Source: Candidatus Bipolaricaulota bacterium | GTDB taxonomy: Bacteria > Bipolaricaulota > Bipolaricaulia > UBA7950 > UBA9294 | Assembly (NCBI GenBank): GCA_026390345.1 | Contig: JAPLGD010000039.1 | Coordinates: 1-34,995 of the forward strand | DNA length: 34,995 nt | Direction: 5' to 3' | Shown here: positions 472 through 11,279 of the stretch, in pieces | Layout of the letters: the number at the start of each line of letters is the position of its first letter | How positions within the stretch are numbered: the first letter of the stretch is position 1 | Notes under the pieces: generated by a model | What the model saw: only the letters and a program-made list of their open reading frames with translations | Told to the model about the DNA's origin: nothing | Database searches by the model: none | Program-made: the position numbers and the translations under genes

Positions 472-846
472 TTGCAGAAGCCCGAGTACGTCATCCAGAC
501 GGACGTCAAGTTCGGCGGACTCGAACGGATCTCCGTCGGAGCCCTTGTCGCCGCGTGTCCTCACGACTGGTTCAACCAGACCCTGTGCCGGGTCAATGAG
601 TCCGTCGTGCGGCTCGGGGTCTTCAAGGGTGAGTTCCACTTCCACAAGCACGATCGGGAGGATGAGTTCTTCTACGTCGTGAGTGGGCGTCTGTTCGTCG
701 AGCTCGAGGGTCGCGTGGTCGAGCTAGGCCCGAATGAAGGCGTGATGGTGCCGCACGGCGTCGTGCACAGAGCCGGCCGCGTCACACTCCATTACCTGGC
801 GGATCCTGAAGGCAACGCCATCGAGATCCAACGTTGGGAGCGCTAG
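472..846 (+). CDS. single-domain cupin protein
   Basis: This 124-residue protein has both cupin motifs: motif 1 with HFHKH, a downstream Glu (EDEFFYVVSG) and closing Gly, and motif 2 with PHGVVH. The His and Glu residues are those that bind a metal in the small double-stranded beta-helix family. I chose the TTG start because AGGAGGT sits 7 nt upstream of it; an ATG at 436 in the same frame has no ribosome binding site. Single-domain cupins are often sugar epimerases, isomerases or sensors. Being the first intact gene before a UDP-sugar epimerase and glycosyltransferases, a sugar-related role is plausible. The fold is sure, the substrate is not. Confidence 0.82.
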   Translation: MQKPEYVIQTDVKFGGLERISVGALVAACPHDWFNQTLCRVNESVVRLGVFKGEFHFHKHDREDEFFYVVSGRLFVELEGRVVELGPNEGVMVPHGVVHRAGRVTLHYLADPEGNAIEIQRWER

Positions 847-897
847 CGAAGCGGCTCTTGCCTACTTCCAACGCGCCTTCCTGCGAACGGGAGGGTG

Positions 898-987
898 ATG
901 AGGCACTACAATGCGCCAGGACTCGCGATCCGCGGATTGCCTGCGGCTCGGCCTGAGGCTGGGCTGATGTACCGGCGGCAGGGGTGA
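898..987 (+). CDS. possible 29-residue peptide with lasso-leader-like spacing
   Basis: A 29-codon frame starts with ATG behind a GGGAGGG that is closer than usual (about 3 nt). Its TGA stop lies 7 nt before the TTG of the epimerase, so translation could be coupled. The peptide begins MRHYNAPGLAIRG, which fits the spacing YxxPxLxxxG of lasso-peptide leaders bound by PqqD-like (B1/RRE) proteins, and a PqqD-like gene follows 1.1 kb downstream. Against it: no Thr at the usual position, no Asp/Glu for a lasso ring, and the motif is short enough to arise by chance. Treat as a candidate only. Confidence 0.25.
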   Translation: MRHYNAPGLAIRGLPAARPEAGLMYRRQG

Positions 988-994
988 ACCTGAC

Positions 995-2041
995 TTGAAG
1001 ATCTGTGTTACAGGCTGCGCGGGGTTCATTGGTGCGTACGTCGTGACGTGCGCACTCCGCGCTGGCCTGTCTGTCGTCGGCGTCGACAACCTTAGTGCAG
1101 ACTACGATGTCCGTCTCAAAGAGTGGCGCCTCAAGCGCCTCCTGAGCGAGCCGGGGTTCCGCTTCTGCCGAACGGATCTCACGGATTCGAGCGCCGTGAG
1201 GCGCCGAATGGAGAAGGCGCTTGCGACCGACGGACGCGCGGGCGCGGTCATCCATTTGGCAGGGCGCGTCGGCCTGCGTCGCAGCCTCGAAGATCCCTCC
1301 GCGTGCTACGAGTCGAACGTGGGAGGAACGCTCAATCTCCTGGAGTCGTGCCGACGAATCGGTGTCCCTCGAGTCGTCCTGGCATCCACAGCGGCCGTGT
1401 ACGCCGAACCCCAAGGGCAGGATGCCCTCCCGGAGATGCTGCCAGATGCCGTCGGTATGTTTGGGCAGCCTTCCGTGGACTCGCCGTACGCGGCGTCGAA
1501 GCGGGCCGCCGAGCAGTTGATCCACTCGTACTACACGACGTACGGGATCGATGCCGTCGTGGCCCGGCTCTTCACGGTCTACGGCCCCGCCGGGCACCCA
1601 GAGATGAGCGTCTTTCGATTCGTTCGAGCGATCAGCGGCGACGAGCCGGTGGAGATCTACGGTGACGGAACCCAGCGCAGGGACTTTACGTACGTCGAGG
1701 ATGTGGCTCGGGGGCTTGTCGCCGCGACTCGGCTGCCCGGGTTTCACGTGGTCGATCTCGGGACGGGAACGCCAATAGCGCTCTTGAAGGTCGTCGATGC
1801 CCTTGGTGCGATCATGGGCCGCACGCCGCGGATTCGCTACCTTCCGGCCCATCCAGCAGAAGTCGTCGACCGCGGAGCGGACGTCGACCGCACGGAGGGG
1901 ATCCTCGGATGGGTTGCCGCAACGCCGCTCGATGCAGGGCTGAGGCAGTGCGTGTCCTGGTTCGAGGAGAATCGTGGATGGGTGACGTCTCTCAACTTGG
2001 GCGAGCCGTACCACACGGAGAGGATCGCGCCGGATCGCTGA
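995..2041 (+). CDS. UDP-glucuronate/UDP-glucose 4-epimerase-like extended SDR
   Basis: This 348-residue extended short-chain dehydrogenase has the NAD-binding TGCAGFIG at residues 6-13, catalytic Ser/Thr near 131-132 and the Tyr165-x3-Lys169 pair (SPYAASK). IHLAGRVGLRRSLEDP resembles the IHLAAxAGVRxSxxxP signature of UDP-glucuronate 4-epimerases (CapI type). The family inverts C4 of a UDP-sugar through a bound NAD-keto intermediate. The start is TTG, with an AGGGG/GGGGTG element about 7 nt upstream. It probably makes the sugar donor for the glycosyltransferases that follow. The exact UDP-sugar cannot be told from sequence; a 4,6-dehydratase is less likely given the active site and length. Confidence 0.85.
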   Translation: MKICVTGCAGFIGAYVVTCALRAGLSVVGVDNLSADYDVRLKEWRLKRLLSEPGFRFCRTDLTDSSAVRRRMEKALATDGRAGAVIHLAGRVGLRRSLEDPSACYESNVGGTLNLLESCRRIGVPRVVLASTAAVYAEPQGQDALPEMLPDAVGMFGQPSVDSPYAASKRAAEQLIHSYYTTYGIDAVVARLFTVYGPAGHPEMSVFRFVRAISGDEPVEIYGDGTQRRDFTYVEDVARGLVAATRLPGFHVVDLGTGTPIALLKVVDALGAIMGRTPRIRYLPAHPAEVVDRGADVDRTEGILGWVAATPLDAGLRQCVSWFEENRGWVTSLNLGEPYHTERIAPDR

Positions 2042-2097
2042 GGGTCCTCGTCCGCTGTAGAATCGCGCGACAGGGTCGATCAAGAAAGGGGCAAGCT

Positions 2098-2553
2098 ATG
2101 GGGCCCGGGCCACGGTACATCCCGAACCAAGACGACATTGCTGCGCGGGTGCTTGACGGCGAAGCCATCATGATCAACCTGGCGAAAGGCATCTACTACA
2201 GCCTCGATGGCGTCGGAGGAAGGATTTGGGAGCTCTTGGAGGAGGGAAGGAGCGCGGCGGAGATGGCCGACGCGATCGCCCTCGAATTCGACGTGACGGC
2301 GGAGCGTGTGCGGGCCGACGTCGACCGGATCCTCCGGGAGCTCGAGGCGGAGGACGCTCTGCGGACCGTCCCCGTCGGTGCCCCGCCTTCCAAGACGACG
2401 CCCCGTGCGCGACTCGCCGCGAAGCGCCCGTATCGAGAACCGAAGCTCACGGTGTACCGCGACATGGCCGACCTGCTTGCCCTCGAACCCCCGACTCCGG
2501 GAACTGACCAGGAGGATCTCTGGGAAGGCTTCGAGACGAAGGCAGATGGCTAG
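2098..2553 (+). CDS. PqqD-like peptide-binding protein with conserved leader-like tail
   Basis: Residues 1-90 of this 151-residue protein form a PqqD-type domain (IPNQDDIAARVLDGEAIMIN, then GIYYSLDGVGGRIWELLEEG, and a helical end typical of RiPP recognition elements). Such domains bind leader peptides and present them to modifying enzymes. A linker rich in Ala, Pro and Arg (91-110) leads to a tail starting KRPYREPKLTVYRDMADLLA at 109. That tail resembles the PxLxxYxDMxxLLxLDPI element attached to, or found beside, other PqqD proteins, and its Y112-x2-P115-x-L117 spacing mimics lasso leaders. AAAGGGG lies 6 nt before the ATG. With two HprK-like genes and a nucleotidyltransferase downstream, it is likely the substrate-recruiting part of the cluster. 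Confidence 0.85.
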   Translation: MGPGPRYIPNQDDIAARVLDGEAIMINLAKGIYYSLDGVGGRIWELLEEGRSAAEMADAIALEFDVTAERVRADVDRILRELEAEDALRTVPVGAPPSKTTPRARLAAKRPYREPKLTVYRDMADLLALEPPTPGTDQEDLWEGFETKADG

Positions 2554-2571
2554 CCCCCGCGGTGCTATGAA

Positions 2572-3291
2572 ATGCCCGACGATGTGAAACCGCCATCGGT
2601 GAGTTGCATCATCCCGGCCTTCAACGCCGCGCCGTTCGTCGGAGAGGCCATCGAAAGCGCTCTCGAGCAGACCCATCCTCCACAAGAGATCCTTGTCGTC
2701 GATGACGGTTCTACGGATCGCACCGCGGACGTCGTGCGATCATTCGGCACGAGACTCGCCTACTTGCATCAACGTCACCTCGGGGTGGCCGCCGCGATGA
2801 ACGCAGGGGTTCGTGCGGCTTCCGGCACGCACATCGCCTTCCTCAACGCGGACGACCTCTGGCGCCCGGAGAAGCTGGCGCGGCAGACGACGCGGCTCGT
2901 CGAGCGCGCCGACGTCGACCTTTGCTTCACGCAGTACCGCAACTTCTGGGTTCCTGAGCTGGCTGAGGAGGAAGGGCTCCACCAAGGACGCTCCCTCTCC
3001 CAACCGATCTCAGGGTGGAGTGCCTCCACGCTCTTGACCCGCCGAGAGACGTTCGGACGCTTCGGCCTCTTCCAGGAGAGCGCGGCGCAGCAGCACGTGG
3101 AGCTCGTTTGGGCTCTGCATGCCGCGCAGCAGGGCGCGATTGTCGACGTCATCCCCGAAGTCCTCATGGATCGTCGACTGCACCCGGGGAACCTCTCCCG
3201 GAGATGGACCATGGACGATGACTTCTTCAAGCTCGTCAGGACCTGGCGCGACTTCAGGCGGACGGAGAAGGAGGCGTCGGATGAGGAGTGA
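2572..3291 (+). CDS. family 2 glycosyltransferase
   Basis: A 239-residue GT-A fold enzyme. VSCIIPAFNA opens the nucleotide-binding half, VVDDGSTD (about 42-49) is the classic GT2 signature, and NADD (about 92-95) is the metal/nucleotide-binding DxD-type site. HPGNLSRRW near the end is a usual GT2 element. No membrane segment is visible, so it should work at the inner face of the membrane or in the cytosol, moving a sugar from an NDP-sugar to an unknown acceptor. The gene sits 18 nt after pqqD with only a weak ribosome binding site, so it may depend on coupling. Its last 11 nt overlap a small frame that has a strong ribosome binding site. Confidence 0.88.
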   Translation: MPDDVKPPSVSCIIPAFNAAPFVGEAIESALEQTHPPQEILVVDDGSTDRTADVVRSFGTRLAYLHQRHLGVAAAMNAGVRAASGTHIAFLNADDLWRPEKLARQTTRLVERADVDLCFTQYRNFWVPELAEEEGLHQGRSLSQPISGWSASTLLTRRETFGRFGLFQESAAQQHVELVWALHAAQQGAIVDVIPEVLMDRRLHPGNLSRRWTMDDDFFKLVRTWRDFRRTEKEASDEE

Positions 3292-3391
3292 GATCGACAG
3301 GAGGCCGGATCATCCAAACGCCTCTTGGCGGATTTCGTGCGGACGGGAAGCAGCCCGACGGCTTGAGCGAGGAGACAGCCGATGCGCGTGA
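3281..3391 (+). CDS. possible 36-residue small protein bridging GT2 and GT4
   Basis: A small frame begins with ATG inside the last codons of the GT2 gene. AAGGAGG sits 6 nt upstream, one of the best ribosome binding sites in the cluster. It ends 10 nt inside the next glycosyltransferase gene. The peptide starts MRSEIDRRPDHPNASW, is rich in Arg, and has Ser and Cys residues near the end (SCGREA...GDSRCA). I recognise no family. It could be a translated coupler carrying ribosomes across the 90-nt gap, or a peptide substrate of the PqqD/kinase system. It could also be chance, since a GAAGGAGG within Lys-Glu codons is easy to obtain. Confidence 0.35.
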   Translation: MRSEIDRRPDHPNASWRISCGREAARRLERGDSRCA

Positions 3392-4506
3392 TGTTCTGGT
3401 CATCGGTCTTTGCCCCGTCGATCGGAGGAGTGCAGACCATGGCGAGCAGCCTGTTGCTTGCCTTGCGGGAGCGCGGCCACGAGTTCCTCGTGATCACGCA
3501 GCGTGACACTCCCGACCTGCCCGTGGAAGACCAGTACGAAGGCATTGCTGTCCATCGTCTTCCGGTTGCCGCAATTCTGACTGACGTGGATCGACTGATG
3601 AAGGCCCGACGGGAGGTCGTTCGACTGAAGTGCGAGTTCGACCCCGATCTCTTCCACACGGCTGCGCTGAGTGCCAACGACTTCTTCCATCTGACGACCC
3701 TGACAGCGCATCCGGCTCCCTGGCTCGTCTCCCTTCTCGGTGCGTGGCCGAGAAGCTGCGATTCGTTCTTCCACAAGGCCCTCACCCACGCTGATTGGGT
3801 CGTCGCCTGTTCGGCCGCGACGTTGCGGTTGGGCTGCGACCTGGCCCCGGAGATCTCGTCTCGCTCCTCGATCATCTACAACGCACAAGAGCCCATCCCT
3901 GTGCGTCCGCGGCCATTGGGGTTCGATCCACCGGTGTTGCTCTGCCTCGGAAGGCTCTCTCGGGAGAAGGGTGTCGACGTCGCGCTTGCCGCCTTCGCCC
4001 ACGTTCTCGAACGCTTTCCCGAAGCTCGGCTTGTCATCGCCGGCGACGGCCCGGAGCGAGACGCGCTCGAGCGTCAGGCGGAAGAACTGAGCATGGGTGG
4101 TGCCGTTCAGTTTCTGGGATGGGTGCCGCCGAACGACGTGCCTGCGCTCATCAACGCGGCGTCTGTCGTGCTCCTGCCTTCTCGAGAGGACGCCTTTCCC
4201 CTGGTCGGCCTTCAGGCGGCTCTCATGGGGCGTCCGACCGCGGCGAGTTGCGTCGGAGGCATCCCCGAGATGATCGTGGACCGCGAGACAGGCCTTCTCG
4301 TCGAAAGGGAGGATCCAAGGGCATTGGCAGGTGCCGTCGAGAGCCTGCTCGAACGCCCTGACGAAGCGCGCCGGATGGGAGAAGCTGCGCGAAGGAGGGC
4401 ACGCGAGGTATTCAGCTTCGACAAACACGTCGGGGCCTATGACGAGTTGTATCGAACGCTCGTGCGCAACGGGTGCACGACGAACGGCCGCGGGCGATCC
4501 TCATGA
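3382..4506 (+). CDS. family 4 glycosyltransferase, copy A (altered EX7E motif)
   Basis: A 374-residue GT-B enzyme. The N-terminal half starts MRVMFWSSVFAPSIGGVQ, with the glycine loop that faces the acceptor; GRLSREKG (190-197) and AGDGPE (220-225) are the donor-binding elements of GT4. The usual EX7E motif reads D270...Q278, so both acidic positions differ from the canonical form. GAGGAGA lies about 7 nt before the ATG. The next two genes are clear paralogs, alike even at the DNA level at their 5' ends. The fold and family are secure. Donor and acceptor are unknown, and the lost second Glu, which normally holds the donor ribose, makes reduced or altered activity possible. Confidence 0.88.
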   Translation: MRVMFWSSVFAPSIGGVQTMASSLLLALRERGHEFLVITQRDTPDLPVEDQYEGIAVHRLPVAAILTDVDRLMKARREVVRLKCEFDPDLFHTAALSANDFFHLTTLTAHPAPWLVSLLGAWPRSCDSFFHKALTHADWVVACSAATLRLGCDLAPEISSRSSIIYNAQEPIPVRPRPLGFDPPVLLCLGRLSREKGVDVALAAFAHVLERFPEARLVIAGDGPERDALERQAEELSMGGAVQFLGWVPPNDVPALINAASVVLLPSREDAFPLVGLQAALMGRPTAASCVGGIPEMIVDRETGLLVEREDPRALAGAVESLLERPDEARRMGEAARRRAREVFSFDKHVGAYDELYRTLVRNGCTTNGRGRSS

Positions 4507-4528
4507 CCTCAGCGGCGGGAGTTCGGCC

Positions 4529-5635
4529 ATGCGAGTGATGTTCTGGTCGTCGGTCTACTGGCCCCACATCGGAGGGGTCCAGGTCTTGGCCCGCCACCTC
4601 TTGCCCGCGCTCGCTGCGCGAGGGCACGAGGTCATCGTCGTGGCCGAGCAGGACCCGCCTGACCTCGCCGCGCAGGAAGACGTCGACGGAATCAGAATCC
4701 TCCGCTTCCCCCTCACTCTCGGGCTGCGAGATATCGACCGACTGACGGACATTCGGCGGGATCTTGCGGACCTACGGCGGCGCTTCGCCCCTGACCTGTG
4801 CCACACGGTGGCCCTCGGCGCGACGGACGTCTACCAGCGGATCACGCAGGATCCGGAGCGTCCTACACCTATTTTGGTCTCGCTTTTCGGGCATTGGCCT
4901 TCGCAGTACACGAGGTTCCTTTCCGGCACGCTGGAGCGAGCCGATTGGATTGCCTGCGATTCGGCGCAGACGCTTGAGTATTCGTACTCGGTCGCCCCGG
5001 GCGCGACGGCACCCCGCTCGGTCATTCGCAATGCGGTTGATGTTCCCACCGTCGTGCCGGCGCCGCTTCCCGATGTGCCCCGATTGCTCGTTGCGGGTCG
5101 CCTTTCCCGTGAGAAGGGAGTGGACCTGGCGCTGCGTGCCTTTGCCCTGGTCTTGCGGCGGTGTCCGTCGGCCCGATTGACCGTGGCTGGCGACGGGCCG
5201 GAGCGCCCCGCCTTAGAGCGATTGGCGACCGAGCTAGGAATCAGCGAGGCAGTGGAGTTCCTCGGCTGGACCGCCCCGGATGAGATCCCCACCCTACTCA
5301 ACGCCGCGTCGGTCCTCGTGCTGCCTTCGCGGGCAGACTCCTTCCCGCTGGTCGGCCTCGAGGCGGCGCTCATGGAGCGTCCGGTCGTCGCGGCCGCCGT
5401 CGGTGGGTTGCCCGAGATGATCGTCCACGAGGAAACCGGAATCCTGGTCAACGCGGAGGATCCGGGCGCGTTGGCGACCGCGGTGGTTCGCCTGATCGAG
5501 GATCCCACGTGGTCCGTGAGACTCGGCCGTGCCGCACGGCAACGGGTGCAAGAGCGTCATCGATTCTCCGACCTCATCGATGCGTATGACGAGCTGTACC
5601 AGCGGGTTGCGCATCGAAGCAAGGGGAGGCCATGA
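4529..5635 (+). CDS. family 4 glycosyltransferase, copy B
   Basis: A 368-residue paralog of the preceding gene. It shares MRVMFWSSV at the start, GGVQ, LVAGRLSREKGVDLAL for donor binding and FLGWTAPDEIP. EX7E reads D270...E278, keeping the second acidic residue and replacing the first by Asp. GGGAG lies about 7 nt before the chosen ATG; this start also aligns exactly with copies A and C, whereas upstream in-frame starts would lie in copy A coding sequence. The gap to copy A is 22 nt. It should transfer a sugar from an NDP-sugar, like its neighbours, possibly as a later step in building one oligosaccharide. Confidence 0.88.
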   Translation: MRVMFWSSVYWPHIGGVQVLARHLLPALAARGHEVIVVAEQDPPDLAAQEDVDGIRILRFPLTLGLRDIDRLTDIRRDLADLRRRFAPDLCHTVALGATDVYQRITQDPERPTPILVSLFGHWPSQYTRFLSGTLERADWIACDSAQTLEYSYSVAPGATAPRSVIRNAVDVPTVVPAPLPDVPRLLVAGRLSREKGVDLALRAFALVLRRCPSARLTVAGDGPERPALERLATELGISEAVEFLGWTAPDEIPTLLNAASVLVLPSRADSFPLVGLEAALMERPVVAAAVGGLPEMIVHEETGILVNAEDPGALATAVVRLIEDPTWSVRLGRAARQRVQERHRFSDLIDAYDELYQRVAHRSKGRP

Positions 5636-6741
5636 TGCGCATCCTCTTCTGGTCCGCGGCGTTTTGGCCCGGCATCGGGGGTGTGCAGAGCGTCGGAGGA
5701 CGACTTGTCCGTTCTCTGTCCGACCGCGGCCACACAATCCACGTGGTGGCGGAGCAGACGTCGGCGAGGATCCCTTTGCAGGAGACCCACGAAGGTGTAG
5801 CGATCACGCGGCTTCCGCTCACCTGGCGGGAACGACAGGGCCTCGACGCCGTGGCCGATGTCGTGCGCACCGTCCGGGAGGTCAAGACGGGGTTCCAGCC
5901 GGATCTCGTCCACATCCACGGCACAAGCGACAGCGATTTCTTCCACCACGCGACGGCGTCCGCTCACCGCGCCCCTCTCCTCGTCACGCTTCACGGTCTG
6001 TGGCCACGGGAGAGGCAGGCGCTCGTCCGACGCACGTTGGAGGCCGCCGATTGGGTGGTCGGGTGCTCGCAAGCCGTTCTCGACGAGGGCCGTCGGCTCG
6101 TGCCGGCGATCGCGACGCGGTCGTGCGTCCTCTATGCCGGGACGATGCCTCCGGTGACGCCCTCTCGGCCGCTGCCGTTCGATCCGCCACGGCTGCTCTT
6201 CCTGGGAAGGCTCTCTCCGGAAAAGGGCGCGGACCTTGCCCTGGAAGCGTTCGCCCACGTCGCAGAGAGGGTTCCGGCGCTGGAGCTTCTCGTCGCGGGG
6301 GACGGAGGCGAACGCGGCCCTCTAGAACGGCGCGCGGCGGAACTGGGTTTGAGCGAGAAGATCCGCTTCCTTGGATGGGTCGATCCCAAGAACGTTTCGG
6401 GACTTCTCAACCGTGTGACGCTCGTCCTGGTCCCGTCTCGCCAGGAGGCGTTCGGGCAAGCCGCGCTCGAGGCAGCGACTGTGGGGCGCCCGGTTGTCGC
6501 CAGCGCCGTGGGAGGACTGCCGGAAATCGTCCGCCACCGCGAGACCGGGCTCCTGCTGGACTCTCGGTCGGCGCAGACGTGGGCGGACGAGATCGTGCGT
6601 CTCCTCGAGTGTCCGGAAGCGGTGGCCGACATGGGGCGCAGGGCGCAAGCGGATGCGCGCACGCGGTTCGACTGGACGGCGACGGTGGACGCGACGGAAG
6701 CTCTGTACGTGCGGATGGTGCAGGCATTCGCGGAGGGGTGA
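5635..6741 (+). CDS. family 4 glycosyltransferase, copy C (canonical EX7E)
   Basis: The third tandem copy also has 368 residues. It begins MRILFWSAAFWPGIGGVQ, has HIHGTSDSDFFHH in the acceptor half, and FLGRLSPEKGAD for donor binding. EX7E is intact, E271...E279, so this is the copy most surely active. The stop of copy B overlaps the start by one base (TGATG). A preceding ATG at 5632 is possible, but GGGGAGG is 5 nt from the 5635 codon and only 2 nt from the other, and the paralogs start with MR. It is followed 7 nt later by the first kinase-like gene, so glycosylation and kinase genes are in one transcription unit. Confidence 0.88.
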   Translation: MRILFWSAAFWPGIGGVQSVGGRLVRSLSDRGHTIHVVAEQTSARIPLQETHEGVAITRLPLTWRERQGLDAVADVVRTVREVKTGFQPDLVHIHGTSDSDFFHHATASAHRAPLLVTLHGLWPRERQALVRRTLEAADWVVGCSQAVLDEGRRLVPAIATRSCVLYAGTMPPVTPSRPLPFDPPRLLFLGRLSPEKGADLALEAFAHVAERVPALELLVAGDGGERGPLERRAAELGLSEKIRFLGWVDPKNVSGLLNRVTLVLVPSRQEAFGQAALEAATVGRPVVASAVGGLPEIVRHRETGLLLDSRSAQTWADEIVRLLECPEAVADMGRRAQADARTRFDWTATVDATEALYVRMVQAFAEG

Positions 6742-6748
6742 AACCGCC

Positions 6749-7822
6749 ATGACGAACGAGGAGCGATTCGTGTCCATGGCCGTCGCGTTCGATGCTGCCC
6801 TAGACCAGTGCCCGAGCCGGGTGCACGAGCAGGCGTACGCGCTCGCAGGTCGGGGCGTAGTCCTGCGCATCGTCGGGGACCGCCTCGCGGAGCGGGTGAC
6901 TCCGGCGCTCGGTCATCTTGCGGATCCCGGAACAGAAGCGGTCCGAACCGAATTGCGCGTTGACCTGTGGGACGAGGCGGAGACCGACGTCGCGCCGGAC
7001 ATCGACCTGCGGCCCGATCCGCTCGGGGTGTCGTCACAGTACAACGCTTCAACCGACGGACGGTTCGTCACGAGTGTCCTCCAGTTCTCGCAGAGCGGCA
7101 TCGATCGCGAGGTGGCGCACATTGTCGGGGCCGTCCAAGACGCGCGGCGGATGACGTTGTATGAGGTCGGCCGTCCGCTCCACGTCCCGCTCAGCCTGTG
7201 GTTCACCGATCGGTCGACCCCTCTCGTTCACGCGGGGTTCGTCGCTGACAAGGACGCAGGCGTCCTCCTGATTGGCGAGAGCGGAGCGGGGAAGACTACG
7301 TCGACCCTCGCGTGTCTTCAGTCCGGCTGGGGATACCTGTCCGACGATCTTGCCGCGCTGGAGACTCGTGATGATGGGACGGCCTGGGGACACAGCGTGT
7401 ACGCATCGGCGTTTGTCGACGGTGGGACGATCGCCCGCGTGGGCAGTGTCTCCGGGATGCTCGTGGACGGGGCGTATCCCTACGAGGACAAGCAGCTGCT
7501 CATTCTTCCCGCCGGGGCGGACGGTCCGCTGCGGATGCGCGCTCGGATTCGTGCGGTGGCTCTGCTTCGGATCTCAACGTCGCCCGCGACACGGTTTCAT
7601 CCGCTGCGGCAGGGAGAGGCTCTTCTCGAGATGCTTCGAGACGGCCTCCAGATTGGCGTGCTCCATCCGGGACGAGCCGGTCTTCAATGCCTGGCCGACT
7701 TGGCAGAGCGGGTCCCGGCGTACCGTGTCGACGTGGGAACAGAGGCCGCCGGAATTCCCGCGGCGTTGCGCACCATGCTTGCCAACGCGGAACGTCCCTC
7801 GCATGTGGAGGAACCCAGATGA
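6749..7822 (+). CDS. HPr kinase-like P-loop protein 1
   Basis: A 357-residue protein whose C-terminal half resembles HprK-related kinases: Walker A GESGAGKTT at 176-184 followed by a helix, and YLSDDLAAL (SDD 198-200) where HprK-type kinases keep the acidic metal/catalytic residues. The N-terminal 150 residues form the poorly conserved domain usual for this group and show no catalytic motif of their own. Relatives beside PqqD-like genes are thought to phosphorylate peptides or proteins rather than HPr; no ptsH is nearby. GGAGGGG precedes the ATG by about 9 nt. The 3' end overlaps the second kinase-like gene by 4 nt (ATGA). Kinase activity is likely; the substrate is inferred. Confidence 0.82.
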   Translation: MTNEERFVSMAVAFDAALDQCPSRVHEQAYALAGRGVVLRIVGDRLAERVTPALGHLADPGTEAVRTELRVDLWDEAETDVAPDIDLRPDPLGVSSQYNASTDGRFVTSVLQFSQSGIDREVAHIVGAVQDARRMTLYEVGRPLHVPLSLWFTDRSTPLVHAGFVADKDAGVLLIGESGAGKTTSTLACLQSGWGYLSDDLAALETRDDGTAWGHSVYASAFVDGGTIARVGSVSGMLVDGAYPYEDKQLLILPAGADGPLRMRARIRAVALLRISTSPATRFHPLRQGEALLEMLRDGLQIGVLHPGRAGLQCLADLAERVPAYRVDVGTEAAGIPAALRTMLANAERPSHVEEPR

Positions 7823-8916
7823 CCCGGCCGATCGCGTTTCGCGGACCTCGTTCAACGTGGCACGGCGGCCCCGAAGCGCGCCTCGCCGAAATGAAGGCGG
7901 GGTTCGCGCAGGCACGTGATCGGCGGCCGGACGAATTCGTCGAGACCTGGGTCGTCCTTGCTGGGATGTCGGTCCGATTGCAGGTCGTGGGGCGGGACCT
8001 TGCGGACGCGCTAGGGATGGCACTCCGCCACCTGGTCGTTGCGAGAGGGGACGGACGGGTGCCGGACCTCGCGATCGCGGCGTGGGACGAGCGCATCTCC
8101 GAAATCGCCGCTCCGGCTGACGCTGGTTCTCTCTGGACGACCGACGAAGGTGGCGTCATCCTCGGCGACGCGGAGGATCGGACTGTGGGACACATCCGCG
8201 ACGGAGTGGAGCTCTGGCTCGAGCGCGACGCGGCGGGCCTGTGGGGCAGCGCCCGGGATGGGACGAACATCGGGCTCCAGAACCGCGGGAAGCCCTTCCA
8301 CGCGCCTCTGCTCGTCTGGCACGCAGATCACGACGTTCCCGTCATGCACGGCGCGCTGGTCGGGTGTGACGGGGCGGGACTTCTGCTGGTCGGGCAAGGT
8401 GGAACCGGGAAGACGACCGCGGCCATGGCCTGCTTCCTCGATGGGTTCGACTTCCTCGGCGACGACTACATCGCGATCGAAGAACCCGCAACGAGGACGT
8501 ATGTTGGGCACAGTCTGTACGATTCCGTATGGTTGACCCGCGATGGGGAGGCCCGCCTGCCAGGCCTCGCGCAATACGCGGAGCCTCCGATACCGACAGG
8601 GGCTCCCAAGCGGCTCGTTCATGCCGCGGCGGTCCACCCGGAGAGAACCCCGCGAGCGGTACGCATCCGCGGCGTTGTCTGTACAGCGTTGGCGGACGGA
8701 GCTGCGCCGGCGATCTCACCCACTACAGGAGCGAAGGCACTGCTCGCCATGGCTCCGACGTCGACGTTGCGGCTTCCCGTCACGGGGGCCCGGTTGATGG
8801 ACCGTATGGCGGCGGTTGCGGAGACCCTGCCGTGCTACGAGTTGCGCGTGGGCGGCGACCTGGCTTCCCTGCCCGGCTTGCTGCGGGGCGTGCTCGAATC
8901 GGGGGATCGGACGTGA
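7819..8916 (+). CDS. HPr kinase-like P-loop protein 2
   Basis: A second, clearly different HprK-like protein of 365 residues. Walker A is GQGGTGKTT (192-200) and the acidic motif FLGDDY (GDD 214-216). NRGKPFHAPLLVWHADHDVPVMHGALVGC before the P-loop matches the layout of the first copy (GRPLHVPLSLWFTD...VHAGFVA), so the two are distant paralogs with the same domain order. GTGGAGG lies about 7 nt before the ATG, and both ends overlap their neighbours (ATGA and GTGA), so all three proteins should be made in step. Two kinases could modify different residues or substrates, or form a heteromer. Both nucleotide sites look intact. Confidence 0.82.
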   Translation: MTRPIAFRGPRSTWHGGPEARLAEMKAGFAQARDRRPDEFVETWVVLAGMSVRLQVVGRDLADALGMALRHLVVARGDGRVPDLAIAAWDERISEIAAPADAGSLWTTDEGGVILGDAEDRTVGHIRDGVELWLERDAAGLWGSARDGTNIGLQNRGKPFHAPLLVWHADHDVPVMHGALVGCDGAGLLLVGQGGTGKTTAAMACFLDGFDFLGDDYIAIEEPATRTYVGHSLYDSVWLTRDGEARLPGLAQYAEPPIPTGAPKRLVHAAAVHPERTPRAVRIRGVVCTALADGAAPAISPTTGAKALLAMAPTSTLRLPVTGARLMDRMAAVAETLPCYELRVGGDLASLPGLLRGVLESGDRT

Positions 8917-11279
8917 GACGTGCGAAGCAGGACCCGGGTCGTGAGCCGACGCTCTCCGACACGCTGTCCGTCCTCCTGCCGGACGCGCGCGATACCGAGC
9001 TTCTGCGCGCCGCGCTGGCCCCCGGATCCGAAGGGCGGGATAGCTGGGTTCGCTGGCGGGAGGGCGTCCACGACGTGAGGTCGGCGCTCGCCGAAGGGCG
9101 CCCGGTGCTTGCGCATCTGCTCCCGCTCCTCCACGCCAACACGCGGCGCAACGGCGCGGAGGTGGACGAAGAGTTTCGTCTTGCCATGGCGGTCGCGACC
9201 CTGCAAGAGGAGCGCCGCGTGGAGTCCGTGTTCGAGATCCTTGCCGATGCGCTGGAGATCCTGAAAGCGGCGGGGGTCGACGCGACAGTTCTCAAGGGGA
9301 CTGCGCTGGCAGCGTCTGTGTACCCTGCTAAGGCGCTCCGGCACTGCCACGACATCGATCTCCTTGTTTCGTCAGACCGGCTCGCCCATGCAGAAGAGGC
9401 CTTGATCCAATCGGGCCGATACCGCTCTTTGGAGAAGGATCCATCGGGTTCGGATCGGCGCGTCGTGCACGCATCGGGCCTTCCTCTTGAACTCCACAGC
9501 CGGTTGCTCCGCTTCTCCTCCGACAAGCAGGCCGAGGAGGCCGTCCTCGTACGGCGTCAGGCGCAGCGGAGTGGTGGTCAGGCGTTTTCGATCCTGCCCT
9601 CGGGCGACGCGCTATGGCATGTCTGGGGGCACGCGGCGTCGGGCGGAAACCGGGGCACGCTGCAGTGGGTTGCAGACGCTTGGCACCTCATTGGGCGATT
9701 CACCCCGGCCGACTGGGAAGCGTTCCGCGCCGGCGTCTGCGAGATGGGACAGGCTCTCCCGGCGTACGTTTGCCTGCGGTATCTGTCTCGGACGTTGGGC
9801 GCGAAGGTGCCGGACTCAGAGCTTCGCTTTCTGCAGGGCGCAGCGCAGCACGTCGGACGACGAGCGCGGGACAGAGCCCTCGCCGGCGCCTTGCACGGCG
9901 GCCGAACAAGCCTTCACGACCTCCGAGCTGCTACACGAAGCGTTCGCTCCCGCCTGTCCTTCATCCGATGGCGAGTTCTTCCCTCGCGGGACTACCTCGC
10001 CACGATCTATCCTGAGAGCAGCCGCCTAGGGTTGTGGGCGCTCTACCTAAAGCGGATTCTGAACTACGCTTTCCGGCCGATCCGGCACGCGGCGCGTCGA
10101 CGGAGATCCGGGGTCTTGCCCCGACGTCCGTGGATGCCTACGGAGCGCCAGGCGCTCCTCGTACGGGCCGCCCTTCTCAACGGAGAGCCGGCAATCGACG
10201 CGTGGAGCCGATGGAAGGCGGCCGGCGACGTCGAGCATATCGATGACGGGTCATCGGCCCTGCTGCCTCTGGTTTACCGAAACCTCGCCGATCTCGGGGT
10301 GAGCGATCCTATGGTCAAGCGCGCTCAGCAAGCCTATAAGATCACGTGGCTCGAGAATGAGCGACGGTTCCGTGAGATCGCTGGCCTTCTCGAGGCGCTC
10401 AACGCCGCGGGAATCGAGACGATGCTCCTGAAAGGCGCTGCCCTCGCGCTCCTCTACTACCGAGATCTCGGGCTTCGTTCCATGGGCGATGTCGATCTTC
10501 TCGTGCGTCCAGAGCGAGTACGCGACGCAGTCGCCCTCCTACAGACCCGCGGATTCCGCGTGCTGCGGCACTCCGCAAGCGTGCTGACGGACGTTCACCT
10601 GCTCTCGCGAAAGGCCATCAACCTCGCCTCGGAGACCGTACCGAAGCTCGATCTCCACTGGCGAGTCATGCGAGAGATCCGTTCGGAAAGCGAAGAAGCA
10701 GCGTTCTGGGAGTCCGCGACGCCAGTCGCTCTCTGCGGCGTGCCAACCCGAGCGATGAATGCGGCAGATCAGGTCCTTCACGTCTGCGTCCACGAAGCGC
10801 GGTGGTGCCCGTCTCCCCTTCCTCGTTGGATGACGGACGTCGCGGTGATCCTCCGAGAGACGGGGAGCGCGTTTGATGCGGCTCGACTCGTAGAGCGCGC
10901 ACGTTGCCTCGAGTTGGTCAGTCCAGTGAAGGAGGCACTCGAATGCCTCGCGGCGAACGTTCCTGCCGTGGTGCCCGTTGAGCTTGTGCGTGCCTTTGGC
11001 GAGGTTTCTCCGACGCGACGGGACGAGCGCGAGTACGCCGTGCGCTGCCGCAGGTCTGGAGCTCTTGGAATCCTACGGGATGAGTACGTCATCTACCGGG
11101 ACACGACGCGCGGTCAGAGCGCAGTCCGGCGATGGCTCGGCTTCTCCCGGTACCTCCAGGCTTTGTGGGGACTTAGCGGTCTCTGGCAGGTCGCAGCGCA
11201 CGCTGTGGCCTGGAGATGGCGTGCCATCTCCAGGAGCAACGTGGGAAGCGGCGAACGGCCGCACCGCAGACGGAACTGA
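8913..11279 (+). CDS. double-domain nucleotidyltransferase (NTP_transf_5-like, fused tandem)
   Basis: A 788-residue protein made of two copies of the family-5 nucleotidyltransferase-like domain. Domain 1 (about 15-400) has VLKGTALA at 126-133 and HDIDLLV with DID 147-149; domain 2 (about 408-788) has LLKGAALA at 505-512 and GDVDLLV with DVD 526-528. Both also keep the LLPLL/LLPLVYRNL segment typical of the N-terminal part, so neither half is truncated. Members normally have one such domain, about 350-400 residues. The GTG start overlaps the kinase stop (GTGA). In lasso-peptide clusters a protein of this family acts after the HprK-like kinase to decorate the phosphorylated peptide, which suggests a similar order here. 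Substrate unknown. Confidence 0.83.
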   Translation: MRRAKQDPGREPTLSDTLSVLLPDARDTELLRAALAPGSEGRDSWVRWREGVHDVRSALAEGRPVLAHLLPLLHANTRRNGAEVDEEFRLAMAVATLQEERRVESVFEILADALEILKAAGVDATVLKGTALAASVYPAKALRHCHDIDLLVSSDRLAHAEEALIQSGRYRSLEKDPSGSDRRVVHASGLPLELHSRLLRFSSDKQAEEAVLVRRQAQRSGGQAFSILPSGDALWHVWGHAASGGNRGTLQWVADAWHLIGRFTPADWEAFRAGVCEMGQALPAYVCLRYLSRTLGAKVPDSELRFLQGAAQHVGRRARDRALAGALHGGRTSLHDLRAATRSVRSRLSFIRWRVLPSRDYLATIYPESSRLGLWALYLKRILNYAFRPIRHAARRRRSGVLPRRPWMPTERQALLVRAALLNGEPAIDAWSRWKAAGDVEHIDDGSSALLPLVYRNLADLGVSDPMVKRAQQAYKITWLENERRFREIAGLLEALNAAGIETMLLKGAALALLYYRDLGLRSMGDVDLLVRPERVRDAVALLQTRGFRVLRHSASVLTDVHLLSRKAINLASETVPKLDLHWRVMREIRSESEEAAFWESATPVALCGVPTRAMNAADQVLHVCVHEARWCPSPLPRWMTDVAVILRETGSAFDAARLVERARCLELVSPVKEALECLAANVPAVVPVELVRAFGEVSPTRRDEREYAVRCRRSGALGILRDEYVIYRDTTRGQSAVRRWLGFSRYLQALWGLSGLWQVAAHAVAWRWRAISRSNVGSGERPHRRRN

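Follow-up and report, generated by a model that had tools for sequence, protein, structure and literature searches.

A widespread cassette of tailed PqqD-domain proteins, HprK-like kinases and glycosyltransferases, with a member in Candidatus Bipolaricaulota

The window described here is a whole contig of 34,995 bp from a metagenome-assembled genome (1.98 Mb, 92% complete) of a Candidatus Bipolaricaulota bacterium. It harbors a gene cluster arranged around a small PqqD-type protein. Gene calls and Pfam matches place a cupin, a short-chain dehydrogenase/reductase (SDR) epimerase, the PqqD protein, a family 2 glycosyltransferase (GT2), three family 4 glycosyltransferases (GT4), two HprK-like proteins and a double NTP_transf_5 protein on the + strand, which bears out the same-strand cluster set out in a preliminary description of this DNA. 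The overlaps of 1-11 nt that were claimed there come down to three, each of 4 nt (5632-5635, 7819-7822 and 8913-8916). That description overlooked a 60-residue tail on the PqqD protein. The cassette to which the cluster belongs is real and wider than was then supposed, and the tail is its specific feature, one for which no report of the sequence string was found in the literature.

The PqqD protein (2098-2553; Pfam PqqD, 9e-17) has 151 residues, compared with 78-88 in the NCBIfam models of lasso peptide B1 proteins. Its domain at 2098-2367 is, by sequence and predicted fold, a discrete lasso B1-type RRE (recognition element of ribosomally synthesized and post-translationally modified peptides, RiPPs), in keeping with the peptide binder proposed earlier. 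Its best profile match is TbiB1 (2e-19); the NCBIfam lasso PqqD models also match, all below their cut-offs, and neither the RRE-tail protein nor the kinases score above the cut-off of any curated NCBIfam model. The C-terminal tail (approximately 2419-2550) makes up the last 60 residues, which end in KRPYREPKLTVYRDMADLLALEPPTPGTDQEDLWEGFETKADG. It contains a leader-like motif, YREPKLTVY (residues 112-120; 2431-2457), in which YREPKL fits the pattern [Y/W]xxPx[L/V/I/F/A] that is bound by discrete lasso RREs (PMC13381572). This is followed by a core segment, RDMADLLALEPPTPGTDQEDLWEGFETKADG (2458-2550), which is found in the window in a diverged form.

Tailed proteins were sought throughout the GTDB collection (134 relatives found, 80 read, around 15 phyla), and they come from Cyanobacteria, Chloroflexi, Nitrospirota, Acidobacteria, Planctomycetes, Bacteroidetes, Deltaproteobacteria, Gemmatimonadetes and others. 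The tail is present in all 80 loci that were read, and combines the leader motif of lasso peptides and linear polyphosphorylated peptides (LPP), [YFW]xxPxL, with a near-invariant (S/T)DMx(D/E)LLLLDPIHxVDExGWP. The scan employed two patterns, one from the beginning of the RRE domain and the other, KYxDMxxLL, from within the tail, which means that the DM part was to some extent selected for; the patterns imposed no such selection on the DPIH and GWP parts. In 68 sequences from about 15 phyla, nine columns show no variation, and six of these lie in the tail (D122, M123, L126, L127, P131 and W142), while F/Y112 and P115 of the leader motif are also conserved. Mean column identity is highest in the core segment (0.85), followed by the leader motif (0.64), the RRE domain (0.51), the C-terminus (0.27) and the linker (0.18). 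Between the window and G002, a sister genome of the same genus, the tail is under purifying selection, as judged from nonsynonymous and synonymous divergences (dN and dS) of 0.03 and 0.27. The Ser or Thr that precedes DM (57 Thr and 22 Ser among the 79 tails with the complete motif) is the sole hydroxyl retained throughout the 80 loci; the window branch has an altered tail, and Arg is found at this position in both the window and G002.

Structures were predicted with AlphaFold2, using the 68 relatives, for a consensus protein and for the window protein. The predicted local distance difference test score (pLDDT) of the RRE domain is above 90 in the models and around 90 in the window protein. 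The motif segment (FxxPxLxK or YxxPxLxV) is predicted as a strand, with a pLDDT of 96 in the consensus protein and 91 in the window (block 111-120, with the strand at 117-120). Values are lower in the linker before the motif (64-70) and after it (50-67 and lower), where the core appears loose. The top Foldseek matches are TbiB1 and TfuB1, each with bound leader, the former at an rmsd of 1.1-1.2 Å. Since the motif is a confident strand and the best folds are leader-bound B1 proteins, the tail may well fill the leader groove of its own RRE in cis, a placement read from pLDDT and DSSP.

A separate peptide substrate, as posited in the preliminary description, was found neither in the cluster nor in its relatives, and the PqqD tail is the sole conserved peptide element. 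The loci share no conserved family of small open reading frames (ORFs). Small ORFs shared among loci were considered as precursors and rejected, as they proved to be either low-complexity repeats or non-coding DNA shared by three closely related Oscillatoria loci. In the whole genomes of 50 relatives no free precursor with the tail motif occurs; the tail appears about once per genome and, with the exception of a single fragment at a contig edge, the frame that contains it is either of RRE size or fused to an RRE. These results bear on the idea of an ordinary lasso or LPP cluster whose precursor was lost or lies outside the contig. The RRE, HprK-like kinase, nucleoside triphosphate (NTP) transferase and exporter are indeed the set common to paeninodin and LPP loci (PMC13381572), but neither a precursor family in the loci nor a free leader-bearing peptide with the motif in the 50 genomes accompanies them. 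The absence of the lasso cyclase and leader peptidase, noted earlier for the cluster, extends to the genome, where the B2 leader peptidase (PF13471) has no match and the cyclase family (Asn_synthase, PF00733) gives no more than a fragmentary match, over 88 of 354 positions, on a different contig. A lost precursor was already disfavored and is highly improbable.

The enzymes around the tailed RRE recur as well. Among 35 complete loci with full flanks, GT2 is found in 34, HprK in 33 and NTP_transf_5 in 29, with all three together in 29; an ABC exporter is present in 14 of the 35 and not in the window. In the window the GT2 (2572-3291) is of a short, cassette-specific type of about 235 residues (Pfam 1e-30; cassette GT2 profile 1e-60), and is followed by the three GT4 enzymes (3382-4506, 4529-5635 and 5632-6741; Pfam 3.7e-41, 1.3e-40 and 4.8e-42). 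Kinase 1 (6749-7822) matches the cassette HprK profile at 1e-56 and Hpr_kinase_C at 2e-5, kinase 2 (7819-8916) matches Hpr_kinase_C at 2e-7, and both of these Pfam matches fall below the family cut-off. Both proteins nevertheless retain the catalytic His, the Walker A Lys and the Asp-Asp pair (H161, K182, D199 and D200 in kinase 1), residues conserved at or near 100% among relatives, and on this sequence evidence their earlier assignment as kinases holds. The fused NTP_transf_5 pair occupies a single ORF (8913-11279, with an inferred GTG start; Pfam 2.9e-75), whose two stretches, 9114-9797 and 10257-10952, score 2e-34 and 2e-42 when searched separately. The doubling of kinase and nucleotidyltransferase that the preliminary description stressed is thus seen in both cases, but its wider standing differs: paired NTP_transf_5 copies occur in 12 of the 35 complete loci, whereas two HprK matches are found in few other loci, and the doubled kinase (the window's two are about 30% identical to each other) is a local trait of the window's genus and not of the system.

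Fusions also tie these parts to one another. Nitrospirota, Bacteroidetes and Deltaproteobacteria have proteins in which HprK is joined to one GT2 domain or to two, and the occurrence of such fusions in several phyla physically links phosphorylation and sugar transfer. A single planctomycete protein (L142, 5223-7157, - strand) consists of an RRE, an internal tail, a second, degenerate RRE-like stretch recognized by eye, and then HprK. Together, the HprK-GT2 fusions and this RRE-tail-HprK fusion indicate that the parts of the cassette belong together. Other enzyme sets can accompany the tail as well, since in the Chloroflexi loci L048, L054, L060, L066 and L076 the tailed RRE adjoins adenylation proteins, accompanied in L066 by an adenylation-carrier-acyltransferase arrangement and sulfotransferases.

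The neighborhood was also surveyed through 115 neighbor ORFs, of which only the families found at least twice were listed. Outside the core set these recurrent families include methyltransferases, sulfotransferases and radical S-adenosylmethionine (SAM) proteins; lasso enzymes and a signal-peptidase-like leader protease (SpI) are not among them. An alternative view is that an exopolysaccharide or a lipid-linked glycan is made, that the substrate of the kinase is a sugar or lipid, and that the RRE serves as a scaffold with no peptide product. The many GT2 and GT4 enzymes and the sugar epimerase would suit such a role, as would the sulfotransferases and the MsbA/PglK-like ABC transporter found among the relatives' locus genes, and LPP and paeninodin clusters likewise lie in capsule loci (PMC13381572). 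However, capsule markers such as Wzx/Wzy or a priming transferase are missing from the recurrent neighbor families, so that, as far as tested, the cassette is not confined to capsule or lipopolysaccharide loci. The kinases, moreover, match HPr (protein-Ser) kinases, weakly in the case of the solved structures 1jb1 and 1kkl that kinase 2 retrieves, and the leader-motif tail would be left unexplained. We consider a purely glycan product unlikely.

Among published systems, LPP is the closest (Popov et al. 2026, May 2026; PMC13381572). The two have in common a discrete RRE, an HprK-like kinase, an NTP transferase, the MsbA-like exporter of some cassette loci, the YxxP leader motif and the lack of a lasso cyclase. 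In contrast, LPP clusters encode separate precursors with YxxPxVLxHQxIxFETxxS, whereas the cassette carries [FY]xxPxLxK[YF][ST]DM fused to the RRE. The stretch that follows the motif is near-invariant in the cassette, GT2 genes belong to its core set, and the signal-peptidase-like leader protease of LPP has no counterpart among its common neighbors. The lasso peptides paeninodin and pseudomycoidin also share a B1-type RRE, an HprK-like kinase and a nucleotidyltransferase leading to hexoses on phospho-Ser; the cassette differs from these in its dedicated GT2 and GT4 enzymes and in lacking the cyclase (C), the leader peptidase (B2) and a separate precursor. The cassette would operate in a similar way to LPP; as the separate precursor, cyclase and B2 peptidase, the features by which LPP or lasso clusters are defined, were each looked for and not found, it is filed as neither LPP nor lasso. 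PqqD-like proteins are likewise present in the HPr-rel-A (TIGR04352/TIGR04353), SynChlorMet (ScmC/ScmD) and GeoRSP families, the first two also with an HprK-related protein, but all window scores for these lie far under the curated cut-offs (for HPr-rel-A, 32 versus 200 bits with TIGR04352 and 14 versus 35 bits with TIGR04353).

The explanation that we favor, while rating its chances somewhat below even, is that the cluster is one example, from Bipolaricaulota, of an unnamed and widely distributed cassette centered on an RRE with its own leader motif and core segment, a relative of the paeninodin and LPP phosphopeptide systems in which the leader and probably the substrate are tethered. The leader motif is predicted to occupy the RRE groove in cis and would hold the following segment out for the enzymes. 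The HprK-like kinase would then phosphorylate this segment, with the Ser or Thr just before DM as the usual candidate acceptor, much as LppK phosphorylates Ser3 in LPP (PMC13381572). NTP_transf_5 and the GT2 and GT4 enzymes may subsequently build a sugar chain on or beside the phosphate, as suggested by the HprK-GT2 fusions and by pseudomycoidin, in which PsmK phosphorylates and PsmN is needed for hexoses on phospho-Ser (PMC9266682). Where present, as in many relatives but not the window, the ABC exporter would transport either the product or a glycan that has been released, and the RRE-tail protein may be a reusable carrier instead of a cleaved peptide. The order of events in the preliminary description, with a peptide bound, phosphorylated and then given sugars, stays an inference. 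Modification of the tail is argued from analogy, and phosphoglycosylation is a plausible mechanism on the same footing. In its fullest form the proposal is that the RRE itself serves as substrate or carrier and that, in many phyla, HprK, GT2 and NTP_transf_5 build a phosphate-linked glycan on its tethered, near-invariant tail; this would be a categorically new arrangement, and we regard it as possible, though less likely than not.

Several observations weigh against the favored explanation, in addition to its reliance on analogy for tail modification and on pLDDT and DSSP for docking. The Arg before DM in the window and G002 means that the acceptor differs there, perhaps being the Thr in PPTPGTDQ, or that the idea is wrong, and 22 of the 80 tails have no Ser, Thr or Tyr beyond the Ser/Thr-DM point. 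The tail is kept in two of the Chloroflexi loci, L048 and L066, where neither HprK nor NTP_transf_5 was detected within about 10 kb. The cassette has yielded no leader peptidase, the internal tail of the planctomycete fusion argues against release as a free peptide, and in the LPP system the deletion of LppN was without visible effect (PMC13381572). Some of these points fit a different role, in which the tail acts as an element for docking or self-blocking and not as a substrate. The RRE would then be a hub, its groove filled by the tail until a true substrate encoded elsewhere displaces it, or with DM-LLLLDPIH-GWP recruiting the enzymes into one complex. The persistence of the tail in loci lacking HprK and the loss of the Ser/Thr in the window branch would both be expected of such an element, and the core segment varies too little to be a typical RiPP core. 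The internal position of the tail in the planctomycete protein speaks for a docking or carrier role over a cleaved product. On the other side, the loci have no recurrent gene for a partner substrate, and the groove motif is a leader motif, leaders normally preceding what is modified. To the docking role we give a real but minority chance.

If the tail is modified, as the tethered-substrate explanation holds, RREs would not be adaptors only, and adaptor, leader and perhaps substrate would be united in one protein. A phospho- or glycoconjugate found across phyla would then have been overlooked by precursor-based RiPP mining, which would miss the cassette because no free precursor exists. Tail modification would also offer a tractable way to test the role of NTP_transf_5, which is unresolved in pseudomycoidin and LPP. 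For further searches, the near-invariant DM-LLLLDPIH-GWP segment is a precise key.

The gene order that the preliminary description proposed to look for elsewhere is found in G002, where the epimerase, PqqD, GT2, GT4, HprK1, HprK2 and NTP_transf_5 genes follow the order of the window over two contigs, with protein identities of 64-90%; since the order from epimerase to NTP_transf_5 is retained, the clustering is not due to chance. Both the epimerase and the cupin, which had been counted as part of the set, lie upstream of the PqqD gene, and only the former is kept in G002. The epimerase, an NAD-dependent sugar epimerase/dehydratase (995-2041, Pfam 3.4e-55), is 65% identical to its G002 counterpart. 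The cupin (472-846, Cupin_2 6.4e-11) is replaced in G002 by a PaaK-like adenylate-forming enzyme and is probably peripheral to the cluster. Along 995-4506, dS relative to L027/L013 is uneven (about 1.1 in the epimerase and first GT4, 0.11 in the GT2 and 0.35 in the PqqD gene), which suggests recombination within the cluster.

Searches of viral contigs and phage records returned no relatives, and no defence-system model matches; a plasmid search returned one relative, in Crinalium. There, the cassette (L030, NC_019735, 2736-17248) is carried by a mobilizable plasmid and lies near a group II intron, which presents a possible route of spread. Another genome of the same family as the window (L010, G022:C105, 6935-13375) contains an LPP-like set with a short tailless PqqD, a radical SAM protein, an ABC exporter and NTP_transf_5, together with what appear by eye to be a P-loop HprK-like protein and a signal-peptidase/GNAT-like protein. 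The contig end lies 471 bp upstream of the cupin, and positions 1-132 of the window hold the end of a reading frame (TVSSAMDLLAELGIARE...), 43 residues with no Pfam match that resemble, by eye, the end of a Fic-family protein.

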